Of a DNA stretch of 64,000 bases, positions 41,835 to 46,844 are shown in pieces (position 1 is the first letter of the stretch; every line of letters begins with the position of its first letter). Origin of the DNA: Desulfovibrio fairfieldensis (GTDB lineage Bacteria; Desulfobacterota; Desulfovibrionia; Desulfovibrionales; Desulfovibrionaceae); contig NZ_CP014229.1 of assembly GCF_001553605.1 (NCBI RefSeq), positions 2,756,501 to 2,820,500 on the forward strand, written 5' to 3'. The translations under genes were made by a program, and so were the position numbers. A model generated the notes under the pieces. It made no database searches. It saw only the letters and a list, made by a program, of their open reading frames with translations, and was not told the DNA's origin.

Positions 41835-43031
41835 ATGACGGATATTGATCGGCAGATGGCCCTTATCAAACGCGGCGTGGCTGAACTGATCGACGAGGGC
41901 GAACTGCGCAAAAAGCTGGCGCGCGGCGTGCCCTTGCGCGTCAAGGTGGGCTTTGACCCCACGGCTCCGGACCTGCACCTCGGGCATACTGTGGTGATGC
42001 ACAAGATGCGTCATTTCCAGGAGCTGGGGCACACGGTCATTTTTCTGATCGGCGATTTCACCGGCCGCATCGGCGACCCTTCGGGCCGTTCGGAAACCCG
42101 CCCCCCGCTGACGGAGGAACAGGTTCTGGCCAATGCCGAAACCTACAAGAAGCAGGTTTTCAAAATCCTGGACCCGAAAAAGACCCAGGTGGAATTCAAC
42201 TCCCGCTGGCTGAGCAAGCTGGACGCCACGGGCTTCATCAAGCTGGCCTCCAGCTATACTGTGGCCCGCATGATGGAGCGCGACGACTTTGAAAAGCGCT
42301 TCCGCGAGCAGCGCCCCATTTCCATCCACGAATTTCTCTATCCGCTCTGCCAGGGCTTTGACTCGGTTTCGCTGAAAACCGACGTGGAAATGGGCGGCAC
42401 GGACCAGAAGTTCAACCTGCTGGTGGGCCGCAACCTCCAGGCCCATTACGGGCAGGAAAGCCAGTGCATTTTGACCATGCCCCTGCTGGAAGGCACGGAC
42501 GGCGTGCGCAAGATGTCCAAGTCCTACGGCAACTACATCGGCATTGATGAGCCGCCGGCGGAAATTTTCGGCAAAGTCATGGGCGTGTCCGACGAGCTCA
42601 TGTGGCGCTATTACGAGCTGCTTTCAGCCAAAAGCCTGGAAGAGATCGCGGCCCTGAAGCGGGATGTGGCCGAAGGCCGCGTGCATCCCAAGGCCGCCAA
42701 GGAAGCCCTGGCCCATGAAATGGTCAGCCGCTACCACAGCGGGAAGGACGCCGATGAGGCCCGCCAGGGCTTCAACGCGGTGTTCGCGGACGGCGGCGTG
42801 CCCGCCGACGCGCCCTCCCACTCCTGCCAACACGGCGAGGACAGCACGCCCCCGGCCTTTCTGGAGGCCGCCGGGCTGGTCAAGAGCCGGGGCGAGGCCA
42901 AGCGTCTGATCAAGGAAGGCGCGCTCTCGGTGGACGGCCAGCGTTGCGACGACGCGCTGGCCCCGCTGCCCGCCGGGGATTATGTGATCAAACTGGGCAA
43001 AAAGCGCTTTCTGAAACTCAACGTGCGCTGA
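41835..43031 (+). CDS. tyrS: Tyrosine-tRNA ligase
   Basis: The 398-residue protein has class I motifs: [16 protein letters not shown] (HIGH), the [13 protein letters not shown] tyrosine-binding block, and [13 protein letters not shown]-terminal S4 RNA-binding domain (about 335-395, [20 protein letters not shown]) follows. The start at 41835 is favoured by the ATAAGGATACGGCG before it and by alignment length. It is a housekeeping enzyme standing alone. Confidence 0.95.
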
Positions 43032-43059
43032 ATCGCAGCACTGCTCCATATTTTCAACG

Positions 43060-43081
43060 GGCGGCCCCTCGGGGCCGCCCG
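43060..43081 (+). terminator. GC-rich hairpin after tyrS
   Basis: A perfect 10-bp stem (GGGCGGCCCC with partner), two-base loop, 28 bases past the tyrS stop. No T run follows, so it may only slow RNA polymerase. Confidence 0.5.
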
Positions 43082-43104
43082 CATTGCTCTATAAAGGAGA
43101 CGGC

Positions 43105-44844
43105 ATGCGCGCTGCCTTTGTTGCGATCGGGTTGGCTTTGCTGGCCTGCCTGCTGCCCTTCGGCATGCACCCCCTGGCCGCCGGGCCGGGTGCTCTCCCA
43201 CAAAAGACGGACGTAACCGCCCTGACCTGCCGCGATCTGGACGCGAACGGACGCCCGCCGCTGCCGCCGCTCTGGCTGGACGGCTACGTCAGCGCGCAGA
43301 TCGACACTGACGATGTCCATCTGACATGGGATGCCGGGCGCTGGCGTATGGAAACGCCGCCTGAACTGAGCGCCCAGTGCCGCCGCACGCCGGATATGGC
43401 CCTGACCGAAGCCTGGAAAACGGCCATGTTGCACTTCCGTTCCCCGAACGAGCCGGGGAACATCCGTGACGCTCTGAATCTCGGGTACGCCACCTGGAAA
43501 GACGCGCGTTCGCTGATCCGCAAGAAAGCTGCCCGGCCGGAGGCTATCGCGGCTGTCCAGGAAAGCCTGTTTGCCGCCCTGCTCCTCTGGGGGGACGGTC
43601 ACCGGGCCTTTAAGCACGGCGGAGGGCGCCCGCCCGACGTGGCTGAGCTCCGTCCGATGGCCCGTGAACTCGCAGCCCTGTCCGCGCGCCTGCCCATTCT
43701 CGCATTGGGAGAGGCCCTTTACCTTGTGCGGGAATGGCCGGTGGAGCTGGCTGCCCTGACCTGCCGGGACACCGGCGGCGCGGCGGGCCGCGGCCGTTTT
43801 TTCTTTATGACAGGCAGATGGCTGAGCGGCTGGGCCGCCGCATGGCGGGAACGCGAACCCAACCCCGCTGCGGAGCGCGAAAAAACCGACGCGGACGCCA
43901 CGGAACCGGAAGCCGGCAGCGCGTTTATTGACGCCTACTGCGCGCGGCATCCCGCAGTCCCGGTAACGAGGGCCTGGCGGGATGCCGACGATGAAATCTG
44001 GCGCGCCGCCGAGGTCGGCAAGCGTTCCTGCGCGGATATTTTCCGTTACGGCCATGACGCCGTGGGCTGGCTGCTGTGGTGGGACGGCTACCAAAGCCAC
44101 CCCTCCACGCGTCTACCCGCGCCTGAAACGTTCGTGGCGCGAAGCGCGGCCATCCGTGCCTTTTGCGCGGCACATCCCCGAATGCCGTTTTCGGATGCGG
44201 CCCGCAAGGCCCTCGCGGCCTTGCCCCCAAGCACTACTCCGCCGGACCCGCTTCCCGCGCCCGGGATCGCCGCGTATGCGGATATAACAGAAAATACGGC
44301 CTTCCACGCGGACGCGCCGCAGCGGTACACGGGCATGGCGGCTCTGACCTGCCGGGAATGGGCGGAGGCGGAGACTGCCGCGAAATCCGTCCTGCCGCCC
44401 AAAATCTGGCTGGACGGCTACGTCAGCGCGCAGATGAATCTGGACTATGCGCCCGTGGGCTTGTGGAGCACCAAATACTTTGTCGCGGAACTGCCTCTTA
44501 TTCTGGCCTCGCAGTGCCGCCGCACGCCGGACATGACCATCACCGAGGCCTGGAAAACAGTCAAAATGTACGAGAAGCAAGACGATAAGGTCTATCTGGG
44601 CGCACCTTGCTCGGATCTGCTCAGATTGAACAAGAAACATGGCGTGGATTTTACGAGCCTGGCTCTCTGGTGGGACGGCTGGCGCGGATGGCTGGAACGC
44701 GGGACATACCAAGAGGAACCGCAAGAAGCCGTAACGGATCGGGGCAGAGCCTTGGAAGCGGCCTGCAAAGCCAACCCCCGGAAGCCGCTCGTGCAAATTC
44801 TTACCGGACTGCGGGGCCACGCCGCGCGGCCGAACGCGGAATAG
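43105..44844 (+). CDS. Secreted protein of six tandem HdeA/HdeB-like modules
   Basis: The 579-residue protein has a signal peptide (about 1-26). Six modules share a first conserved position with T/S/P-C-x-(D/E), an LWxDGY-type Trp core, then a second Cys before R/K/A and P. Cysteines fall at 42/92, 220/279, 309/353, 416/471 and 502/554. The second unit (about 128-206) keeps the WGDGHRAF core but has no Cys. Modules 1 and 5 are nearly identical around LDGYVSAQ and QCRRTPDM. Single-module HdeA/HdeB proteins are acid-activated periplasmic chaperones with one disulfide. The fold match is by pattern, not search. AAAGGAGACGGC decides the start. Confidence 0.62.
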   Translation: MRAAFVAIGLALLACLLPFGMHPLAAGPGALPQKTDVTALTCRDLDANGRPPLPPLWLDGYVSAQIDTDDVHLTWDAGRWRMETPPELSAQCRRTPDMALTEAWKTAMLHFRSPNEPGNIRDALNLGYATWKDARSLIRKKAARPEAIAAVQESLFAALLLWGDGHRAFKHGGGRPPDVAELRPMARELAALSARLPILALGEALYLVREWPVELAALTCRDTGGAAGRGRFFFMTGRWLSGWAAAWREREPNPAAEREKTDADATEPEAGSAFIDAYCARHPAVPVTRAWRDADDEIWRAAEVGKRSCADIFRYGHDAVGWLLWWDGYQSHPSTRLPAPETFVARSAAIRAFCAAHPRMPFSDAARKALAALPPSTTPPDPLPAPGIAAYADITENTAFHADAPQRYTGMAALTCREWAEAETAAKSVLPPKIWLDGYVSAQMNLDYAPVGLWSTKYFVAELPLILASQCRRTPDMTITEAWKTVKMYEKQDDKVYLGAPCSDLLRLNKKHGVDFTSLALWWDGWRGWLERGTYQEEPQEAVTDRGRALEAACKANPRKPLVQILTGLRGHAARPNAE

Positions 44845-44871
44845 CGCCGCCCCTTTTGGGAAAAGTTTGCC

Positions 44872-45564
44872 TCAGCTTTCCAGGGCCAGATTCGCGGCGG
44901 CGGTGGCGTGCAGCACGGTGGTGTCGAAAAGAGGCAGTTCGGCGTCCTCGGGTCGCAGCAGCAGGCCGATTTCCGTGCAGCCCAGAATGACGCCACGCGC
45001 GCCACGCCCGGCCAGTCCGGCCATGGCCGCCTGAAACTTTTTCCGGGAATCCTCGCGAATCACGCCCAGGCAGAGCTCCTCGAAAATGACCTTGTTGATC
45101 ATGTCGCGTTCCGGCGCGTCCGGAATCAGCACCTCAAGACCCTGCCGACGCAGCCTGCCGCAGTAAAAATCCTCTTCCATGGTGTAACGCGTGCCCAGCA
45201 GGCCCACCGAGCGCAGGCCGCGCCCCAGGATTTCGGCGGCCGTGACGTCCGCGATGTGCAGCAGGGGAATGGAGACCGCCTCCTGAATCCGGGGGGCCAC
45301 CTTGTGCATGGTGTTGGTGCAGATGACGATGAAATCCGCGCCGCCCTTCTCCAGATTTTGCGCCGCCGCGCCCAGCAGCAGCGCGCTCCTGTCCCAGTCC
45401 CCGGCGGACTGGCAAGCCTCGATTTCCTGAAAATCCACGCTGTAGAGCAGGCAGCGGGCCGAATGCAGGCCGCCCAGGCGTTCCTTCACCACAGTGTTGA
45501 CGATCCGGTAATAACTGACCGTGCTTTCCCAGCTCATGCCGCCCAACAGGCCGATGGTCTTCAT
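44872..45564 (-). CDS. Aspartate/glutamate racemase family protein
   Basis: The 230-residue protein has the two-Cys site of cofactor-independent racemases: CTNTMHKVA in the N-half and VILGCTEIGLLLRPED in the C-half, each in the usual loop. KTIGLLGGMSWESTVSYYRI is the typical start. It would interconvert L- and D-Asp (or Glu) for the cell wall or signalling; broad-specificity members exist, so substrate is open. AGGAGG six bases before the ATG at 45564 decides the start over a longer frame. Confidence 0.88.
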   Translation of the reverse strand: MKTIGLLGGMSWESTVSYYRIVNTVVKERLGGLHSARCLLYSVDFQEIEACQSAGDWDRSALLLGAAAQNLEKGGADFIVICTNTMHKVAPRIQEAVSIPLLHIADVTAAEILGRGLRSVGLLGTRYTMEEDFYCGRLRRQGLEVLIPDAPERDMINKVIFEELCLGVIREDSRKKFQAAMAGLAGRGARGVILGCTEIGLLLRPEDAELPLFDTTVLHATAAANLALES

Positions 45565-45623: not shown

Positions 45624-46844
45624 ATGCGGAAACTGTACGTGGCGATGGTGGGCCTGCCCGCGCGCGGCAAGTCCACGCTGGCGCGGCGCATCCGCCAGGG
45701 CCTGCTGGCCGAGGGCATCCGGGCGCAGATCTTCAACAACGGCGACATGCGCCGGGCCCTGGTGGGCGCGGAATCCACGGAGCCGGATTTCTACAATCCG
45801 GAAAACAGCGCTGGCCGCGAAATCCGCGAGCAGATCTGCCTCCGCAACATGGCCCGGGCCCGGGCCTGGCTGGCCGAGCAGGGCGAGGTGGCCATTCTGG
45901 ACGCCACCAACGCCAGCCGCGCCCGGCGGATTCTCATCGAACAGACCCTCACCGACCACCCCGTGCTCTTTGTGGAGTGCGTCAACGAAGACCCGCTGCT
46001 GCTCAACGCCTGCATCCGCCGCAAAACCACCCTGCCCGAATACGCGTCCTACAGCGAGGCCGACGCCCTGGACAGTTTCATGAAGCGCATCGGCTATTAT
46101 GAATCCATCTACAGCCCGCTTCAGGATGAAAAATTCTGGCTCTGCGTGGATTCCACGGCCAACCGCATTCTGGACGAACGCCCTTGTGAAGGCTCGCCCT
46201 ATTATCCGGCCATCCGCGAGATTGTGGTCAGCGTCTGGGTGCACAGCCTCTATCTGGCCCGCCACGGCCAGACGGAATTCAACGTGCAGGGCCGCATCGG
46301 CGGCGATCCCCCGCTCACGGCCCTGGGCCGCTCCCAGGCCGAAGCCCTGGCCCGGCACATGCGCGACCGGCGCATCGACTGGGTGTTCACCTCCACCCGC
46401 CTGCGCTCCCACGAAACAGCGGCCCCGCTGCTGGTTGAACGCCCCGGCGCGCACGCCATGGCTCTCAAGGAGTTTGACGAAATCTGGGCCGGAGACTGCG
46501 AAGGCATGCTCTATTCGGAAATCCGCCGGAGCATGCCCGACGTCACGGCGGGCCGCAACGCGGACAAATACGGCTACGCCTATCCCAACGGCGAAAGCTA
46601 CGCCATCCTGCGCGAACGCGTGCAGCGCGGCCTCAGGCGCGCGCTCTTTCTGGCCGGGGACGCGCCCCTGCTCATCGTGGGGCATCAGGCCATCAACCGG
46701 GTGCTGCTCTCGCTCTTTCTGCGCCAGCGCAGCGAGGACGTGCCCTATATCTACATTCCCCAGAACCAGTATTACCACATTTCCCTGACCCCGCACCGCA
46801 AAGTCTTCGAGCGCGTCCCCTACGAACGGACGGGGCGGGACTGA
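45624..46844 (+). CDS. 6-phosphofructo-2-kinase/fructose-2,6-bisphosphatase-like fusion
   Basis: The 406-residue protein has an N-terminal P-loop kinase (about 1-200: VGLPARGKSTLAR, then FNNGDMRR and AILDATNASRARR) and a C-terminal histidine-phosphatase domain (about 206-400). The phosphatase part has LARHGQTEFNVQGRIGG, with His214 as nucleophile, DEIWAGDCEGMLYSEI as proton-donor segment and VGHQAINR as second His (354). This is the eukaryote-type PFK-2/FBPase-2 layout, rare in bacteria. It would make and destroy fructose 2,6-bisphosphate if the kinase is active. Standing alone, it is divergent from the racemase gene. Confidence 0.8.
   Translation: MRKLYVAMVGLPARGKSTLARRIRQGLLAEGIRAQIFNNGDMRRALVGAESTEPDFYNPENSAGREIREQICLRNMARARAWLAEQGEVAILDATNASRARRILIEQTLTDHPVLFVECVNEDPLLLNACIRRKTTLPEYASYSEADALDSFMKRIGYYESIYSPLQDEKFWLCVDSTANRILDERPCEGSPYYPAIREIVVSVWVHSLYLARHGQTEFNVQGRIGGDPPLTALGRSQAEALARHMRDRRIDWVFTSTRLRSHETAAPLLVERPGAHAMALKEFDEIWAGDCEGMLYSEIRRSMPDVTAGRNADKYGYAYPNGESYAILRERVQRGLRRALFLAGDAPLLIVGHQAINRVLLSLFLRQRSEDVPYIYIPQNQYYHISLTPHRKVFERVPYERTGRD

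Follow-up and report, generated by a model that had tools for sequence, protein, structure and literature searches.

A six-module HdeA-type protein encoded beside tyrS in Desulfovibrio fairfieldensis

Introduction

HdeA of E. coli has a small fold that works singly and protects proteins from acid. Together with HdeB it serves as a textbook example of a chaperone that acts by partial unfolding, with a switch that is tied to its dimer contacts. Within the window considered here, which is the whole 64,000-nucleotide stretch of the Desulfovibrio fairfieldensis genome that was analyzed, a gene adjoining tyrS appears to encode six modules of this kind in one chain. It may be asked whether the modules are genuinely of the HdeA type, what the repeating unit is, from where such a chain arose, and what it might do in the cell envelope.

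Gene and module layout

The ORF translation gives an open frame of 579 aa at 43105-44841 on the plus strand, or 43105-44844 for the whole gene with its stop codon. The gene starts 73 bases after the stop codon of tyrS, with a ribosome-site-like AAAGGAG upstream of its ATG. A search of 42900-45000 for sigma-70-like promoters gave no match. The mature chain consists of 553 residues, and the features in window coordinates are as follows:

41835-43031, plus strand: tyrS, the anchor for site comparison between genomes
43059-43080, plus strand: G+C-rich inverted repeat in the gap between tyrS and the six-module gene, not followed by a T run (by eye)
43105-44844, plus strand: whole gene, 579 aa and stop; signal-like N-terminus followed by three A-B pairs, or six HdeA-type modules
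43105-43182, plus strand: signal-peptide-like N-terminus, residues 1-26 (by eye from the sequence)
43213-43434, plus strand: module A1, residues 37-110, Cys 42 and 92
43271-43301, plus strand: 31-nt stretch of A1, repeated without change in A3 (44405-44435)
43453-43743, plus strand: module B1, residues 117-213, both cysteines lost; predicted fold against HdeA Z 4.6 over 77 residues, 3.0 Å
43744-44004, plus strand: module A2, residues 214-300, Cys 220 and 279
44008-44220, plus strand: module B2, residues 302-372, Cys 309 and 354
44221-44328, plus strand: linker between the second and third pairs, residues 373-408, with a Pro-rich start
44329-44580, plus strand: module A3, residues 409-492, Cys 416 and 471; 49% identity to A1
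44405-44435, plus strand: 31-nt stretch of A3, the exact copy of that in A1 (43271-43301)
44587-44817, plus strand: module B3, residues 495-571, Cys 502 and 554; its model aligns with HdeA at Z 5.8 over 78 residues, 2.6 Å

At the position of the inverted repeat, terminator-like repeats that do carry T runs are present in two other genomes, G175 and G184.

The cysteines are found at positions 15, 42, 92, 220, 279, 309, 354, 416, 471, 502 and 554. The first of these belongs to the signal-like N-terminus, and a lipoprotein reading of it was set aside as, judged by eye, the hydrophobic run continues after Cys 15. The remaining ten are distributed two to a module in five of the six modules with none in B1; thus, the two conserved cysteines that flank the module core in the HdeA/HdeB domain family are present in 5/6 modules. 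Spacing within a module is 45-59 residues. The precursors of E. coli HdeA and HdeB have cysteines at positions 39 and 87, 48 residues apart.

Modules A1 and A3, the first and fifth, are 49% identical over 74 aligned residues and have the motifs WLDGYVSAQ and QCRRTPDM in common. At the DNA level, the two share the exact 31-nt stretch listed above and a further stretch of 77 nt at 77% identity. A first-pass annotation of this DNA had proposed both the cysteine pattern, including its loss in the second module, and an internal duplication of units 1 and 5; each proposal agrees with these observations.

The modules resemble HdeA and HdeB in sequence

A module profile was built from 15 modules of other proteins, leaving out the modules of the six-module protein itself; one source protein, which supplied two of the 15, had itself been found with the six-module protein, and the module limits were set by eye. 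This profile matched at residues 38-105, 157-192, 216-293, 306-368, 411-486 and 501-567 with scores of 29.5, 6.6, 18.1, 32.9, 32.9 and 30.2 bits, respectively, for a sum of 146.3 bits. The weak match is the cysteine-less B1. When the mature chain was shuffled 2000 times and scored with the same profile, the best result was 16.3 bits and the next 8.1. With the module score so far above the shuffles, the six-module feature is confirmed at the level of sequence, as the first-pass annotation had read it: six HdeA-like modules in one secreted-looking chain, all six of which are recovered by the profile.

The link to HdeA and HdeB themselves was approached from both directions. The Pfam HdeA model (PF06411), searched against the whole chain, matched the last module at 27.3 bits versus a cut-off of 22, so that the protein passes the curated cut-off by virtue of B3 alone. 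With the six modules submitted singly to Pfam, 0/6 scored above the HdeA cut-off. In the other direction, the module profile gave 14.5 bits for E. coli HdeA and 14.8 bits for HdeB, where the best of 2000 shuffles reached 10.3. A profile-profile comparison with PF06411 returned a probability of 84% and an E value of 7.5e-6, the latter applying to that single comparison. The assignment to the HdeA family that had been put forward for checking by profile is in keeping with this comparison and with the whole-chain match from B3. A sequence search of the PDB identified four weak, unrelated matches, the best of which (E 0.0005) was an aminotransferase. The best reading of the protein is as a probably secreted and periplasmic member of the HdeA/HdeB domain family.

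Predicted fold

Because the two-module relatives were each stretched singly across several pairs in a whole-chain alignment, the first and third pairs were modeled separately instead of the whole chain. The model of pair 1 had a mean pLDDT of 78.7 and a pTM of 0.77, and that of pair 3 a mean pLDDT of 86.5 and a pTM of 0.82. Foldseek gave no significant match for either model; HdeA, the most plausible of the rows, was returned at E 2.0 for pair 1 (1dj8, TM 0.54 by target length) and at E 2.1 for pair 3 (1bg8, TM 0.58), neither being significant.

VIA-align was run on the candidates from Foldseek. For pair 3, HdeA ranked first and was placed on B3 (Z 5.8, 2.6 Å, 78/79 residues). Three rows had Z ≥5, all of them HdeA, and these were followed by YmgD and HdeB. 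For pair 1, HdeA again ranked first and was placed on the cysteine-less B1 (Z 4.6, 3.0 Å, 77/79 residues), followed by HdeB at Z 3.8 and serum albumin at Z 3.5. Z values of this size can arise by chance among helical proteins. As the HdeA match of pair 1 lies within about 1 Z of serum albumin, it does not appear to be clear of chance, and the modeled fold of B1 supports membership in the HdeA family without proving it. The HdeA rows fall on the B modules (B1 and B3) with none covering A1 or A3; the models of A1 and A3 each present four helices in the same order. As to the HdeA-like fold that had been suggested earlier, the models of both pairs match E. coli HdeA best, to a moderate degree.

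The repeating unit is an A-B pair

The collected loci encode 67 distinct two-module proteins, whose first modules were made into an A profile and whose second modules into a B profile. Both profiles put all 67 of their own members in the right class; these members had been part of the build, and a large share of them belong to a single canonical group. For modules 1-6 of the six-module protein, the A/B scores were 30.8/21.1, -0.4/4.4, 15.3/11.8, 10.0/30.2, 39.0/27.4 and 14.1/18.5 bits. Thus, the profile expected from the class order A-B-A-B-A-B scored higher in 6/6 modules, with small margins for A2 (3.5 bits), B1 (4.8 bits) and B3 (4.4 bits). A four-module chain in the genome G175 was classed as A-B-A-B, 4/4 as expected and with wider margins. 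A tree of the modules agrees with this classing in outline and has weak support.

By these profiles, the six-module chain is an extension of the already known two-module form. The earlier reading of the architecture was therefore right as to six HdeA-type modules and is amended as to the repeat, which is a two-module pair taken three times and not a single module. The contrast that had been drawn with single-module HdeA and HdeB, making a longer chain a new architecture, is amended likewise, since two-module HdeA-type proteins are widespread in Desulfovibrio and a four-module one exists.

The A modules have pI values of 4.8, 5.1 and 6.1 (acidic to near neutral) and the B modules 10.0, 9.3 and 9.1 (basic). 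Alternating module charge was considered as an ancestral design and rejected, the combination of a negative A and a positive B being present in just 1/67 two-module relatives.

Distribution of HdeA-type chains

The module profile matched in 75/79 Desulfovibrio genomes at E 0.01, including 55/55 of the more complete ones. Across Desulfovibrionaceae, there were matches in 98/288 genomes at E 0.001, and in a sample of the phylum in 11/297 genomes, 9 of these in Desulfovibrionaceae. Among the matches listed, the chains have one or two modules except for the six of this genome and the four of G175, and the six-module frame was found in this genome only among those listed from the 79 genus genomes. 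It is thus the longest HdeA-type chain among the matches listed. The survey of multi-module chains that had been proposed yields, among those same matches, a widespread two-module form and one four-module chain. A separate scan of named genomes, with two-module proteins as the queries, found a two-module frame in 50/50 loci (one cut by a contig end); its records are assigned to Desulfovibrio or Desulfovibrionaceae, with one from Deltaproteobacteria.

When the six-module protein was itself used as the query against the 79 genus genomes, matches were obtained in 20 at E 0.01. The best four other matches (G232, G264, G265 and G006) have 30-34% identity over about residues 409-577, corresponding to one pair, and the remaining matches are weak. 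Two of these genomes, G232 and G265, encode a further two-module HdeA-type protein (L035 and L083) that by eye has a lipoprotein-like N-terminus and that forms a long separate branch in the tree of pair units described below.

A mobile or defense origin was considered and found no support: a tblastn search of plasmids with the six-module protein and a PADLOC analysis gave no match, and PHROGs returned none for the six-module protein; its relatives had two weak matches there (E 0.036 and 0.17), both of unknown function. In a literature search of mostly open-access papers, neither multi-module HdeA chains nor a Desulfovibrio HdeA appeared in the titles and opening abstract lines of the matches listed.

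The tyrS site and the origin of the chain

In the genomes G006, G232 and G265, a two-module gene directly adjoins a tyrS that is 87.5% identical to that of this genome. In G264, tyrS and the two-module gene are located at the ends of two contigs, as would be expected if the assembly broke between them. From 75 genomes with a tyrS match, 30 tyrS loci were scanned, and HdeA modules were found beside tyrS in four of them, namely this genome, G006, G232 and G265. The nearest relative by tyrS is G175 (96%); at its site, tyrS leads straight to a racemase gene with no HdeA gene between them.

The four-module gene of G175 (L079, 4758-6029, minus strand; its first Met opens a chain of about 402 aa) is instead part of a row of three HdeA-type genes, sitting between genes of the P0003 and P0004 types. 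At the corresponding site, the D. fairfieldensis genome has the P0003- and P0004-type genes only. Since this site differs from the tyrS site, the two near relatives have their long chains at different places.

A tree built on 22 pair units grouped the three units of the six-module protein with the tyrS-side units (82/86, not starred). Pairs 1 and 3 were sisters (88/84), pair 2 was on a long branch, and the G175 units fell in the other half of the tree (97/93). A joint clade of the long-chain units of this genome and those of G175 was rejected with a p-AU of 0.0007, in a test that was chosen after the tree had been seen and that involves long branches; a single clade of the three own units was not rejected (p-AU 0.30). 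The simplest account of the sequences would be that this lineage had a two-module gene next to tyrS and expanded it to three pairs, and that G175 doubled another two-module gene. Multiplication at the tyrS side requires repeated loss of the tyrS-side gene in relatives, and an independent arrival of HdeA-type genes at the tyrS site is a possible alternative.

The six neighbors of the six-module gene that were scanned are tyrS, an Asp/Glu racemase gene, a 6PF2K/phosphatase gene, a TerC/CorC-type gene and two without a match; no effector gene was seen among them. The gene at 45624-46844 joins a 6-phosphofructo-2-kinase domain to a histidine-phosphatase domain in the manner of the eukaryotic bifunctional enzyme. 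Elsewhere in the genome (3003000-3016000; L080, 234-7541), two two-module HdeA-type genes follow an electron-transfer cluster with HdrA-like and AsrA/AsrB- or hydrogenase-gamma-like members, and relatives of this cluster lie within about 6 kb of a canonical HdeA gene in 18/50 named loci.

Proposed function

The most likely function, to which about an even chance may be given, is that of a periplasmic, ATP-independent holdase made of three tethered pairs. A two-module A-B protein would have been tandemly multiplied to three pairs, and each intact module would hold an internal disulfide. In excerpts of the published work, HdeB is described as having four helices and a Cys10-Cys58 disulfide (PMC4655364), HdeA and HdeB as latent dimers that open in acid (PMC8144458), and HdeB as active as a dimer at pH 4 (PMC8144458, PMC4655364). 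One A-B pair would be the counterpart of such a dimer, joined within a single chain, and the three pairs together would provide several client sites. Hydrophobic faces may then open under acid or a similar envelope stress, and several linked sites may bind one client.

The multivalent role as chaperone or scaffold that the first-pass annotation proposed is plausible. A fuller version of the chaperone reading holds that tethered A-B pairs replace the HdeA dimer, that activation is an opening of the pair within the chain and not a dissociation, that several opened pairs grip one client, and that such a protein evolved at least twice in one genus, one species having two pairs and a near relative three. 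With all of its parts taken together, this version is speculative and unlikely.

The foremost alternative to a holdase, though a doubtful one, is a loosely constrained expansion where unequal duplication and drift gave rise to the additional pairs, leaving a chain that is no better than its two-module ancestor or is decaying. The loss of both cysteines from B1 and the absence of the gene from the tyrS site of G175, the relative closest by tyrS, would be in keeping with this, as would the rate of change. The units are 30-34% identical to their tyrS-side relatives, while tyrS is 87.5% identical, so by this comparison the six-module gene changes much faster than its neighbor. Between A1 and A3, dS is 0.65 and dN is 0.44 for a dN/dS of about 0.68, a fast change such as a loosely constrained protein might show. 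However, the rate does not separate loose constraint or a partner that changes from a chaperone, and the 579-aa frame is intact, with cysteine pairs kept in five modules, the class order kept in six, and a four-module chain present elsewhere in the genus.

Fast sequence change and patchy presence could also be produced by a secreted inhibitor or immunity-type binder, in which a helical disulfide scaffold blocks a periplasmic enzyme or toxin and several modules confer several specificities. The Tai4 and Rap immunity proteins are likewise exported, helical, disulfide-bonded and dimeric according to excerpts of PMC3852654 and PMC3695027, but the layout of helices and cysteines given in those excerpts is other than that found here. 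No Tai4/Rap model appeared in the Pfam scans made up to E 10 (P0001 and the single modules), where the filters of HMMER drop most weak matches. The VIA-align rows of pairs 1 and 3, drawn from the Foldseek candidates, do not list the Tai4/Rap fold but have little bearing on it. With neither a PADLOC match nor an effector among the six neighbors scanned, this role is improbable. Least probable of all is a protein that serves in the periplasm as a scaffold or in metal/redox-related binding and has no chaperone action, its modules being mere binding blocks, since the acidic A and basic B modules and the two-module paralogues near an electron-transfer cluster in 18/50 loci are countered by the alternation of charge in just 1/67 two-module relatives and by a six-module gene that adjoins tyrS and not such a cluster.

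Comparison with known systems

The holdase proposal may be placed among the relatives of the chain. The two-module proteins of Desulfovibrio (P0003 and P0004 of this genome, and the tyrS-side proteins of G006, G232 and G265) share its A-B order and signal-like start. The tyrS-side genes also share its site and, with moderate support, its group in the tree, but their products have one pair versus three and are 30-34% identical to the third pair. The four-module chain of G175 is similar in having tandem A-B pairs in one secreted-looking chain; it differs in having two pairs, at another site, with units from the other half of the unit tree. With its chains of one, two, four and six modules, the genus offers a natural series on what tethering does. 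From this series, it could be asked if a linked pair is still dependent on acid for opening, and if more linked sites hold clients better. The cysteine-less B1 similarly asks how far the HdeA fold depends on its disulfide.

Compared to E. coli HdeA and HdeB (PF06411), the protein has in common a helical module, as predicted here for pairs 1 and 3, two cysteines about 48 residues apart, and putative export, judged here by eye from the signal-like N-terminus. The E. coli proteins have one module per chain and form homodimers, as stated in the excerpts of PMC8144458, whereas here there are six modules, one of which is without cysteines. HdeA and HdeB proper are single-module chains of about 110 aa; with six modules in 579 aa, the Desulfovibrio protein is not filed as either.
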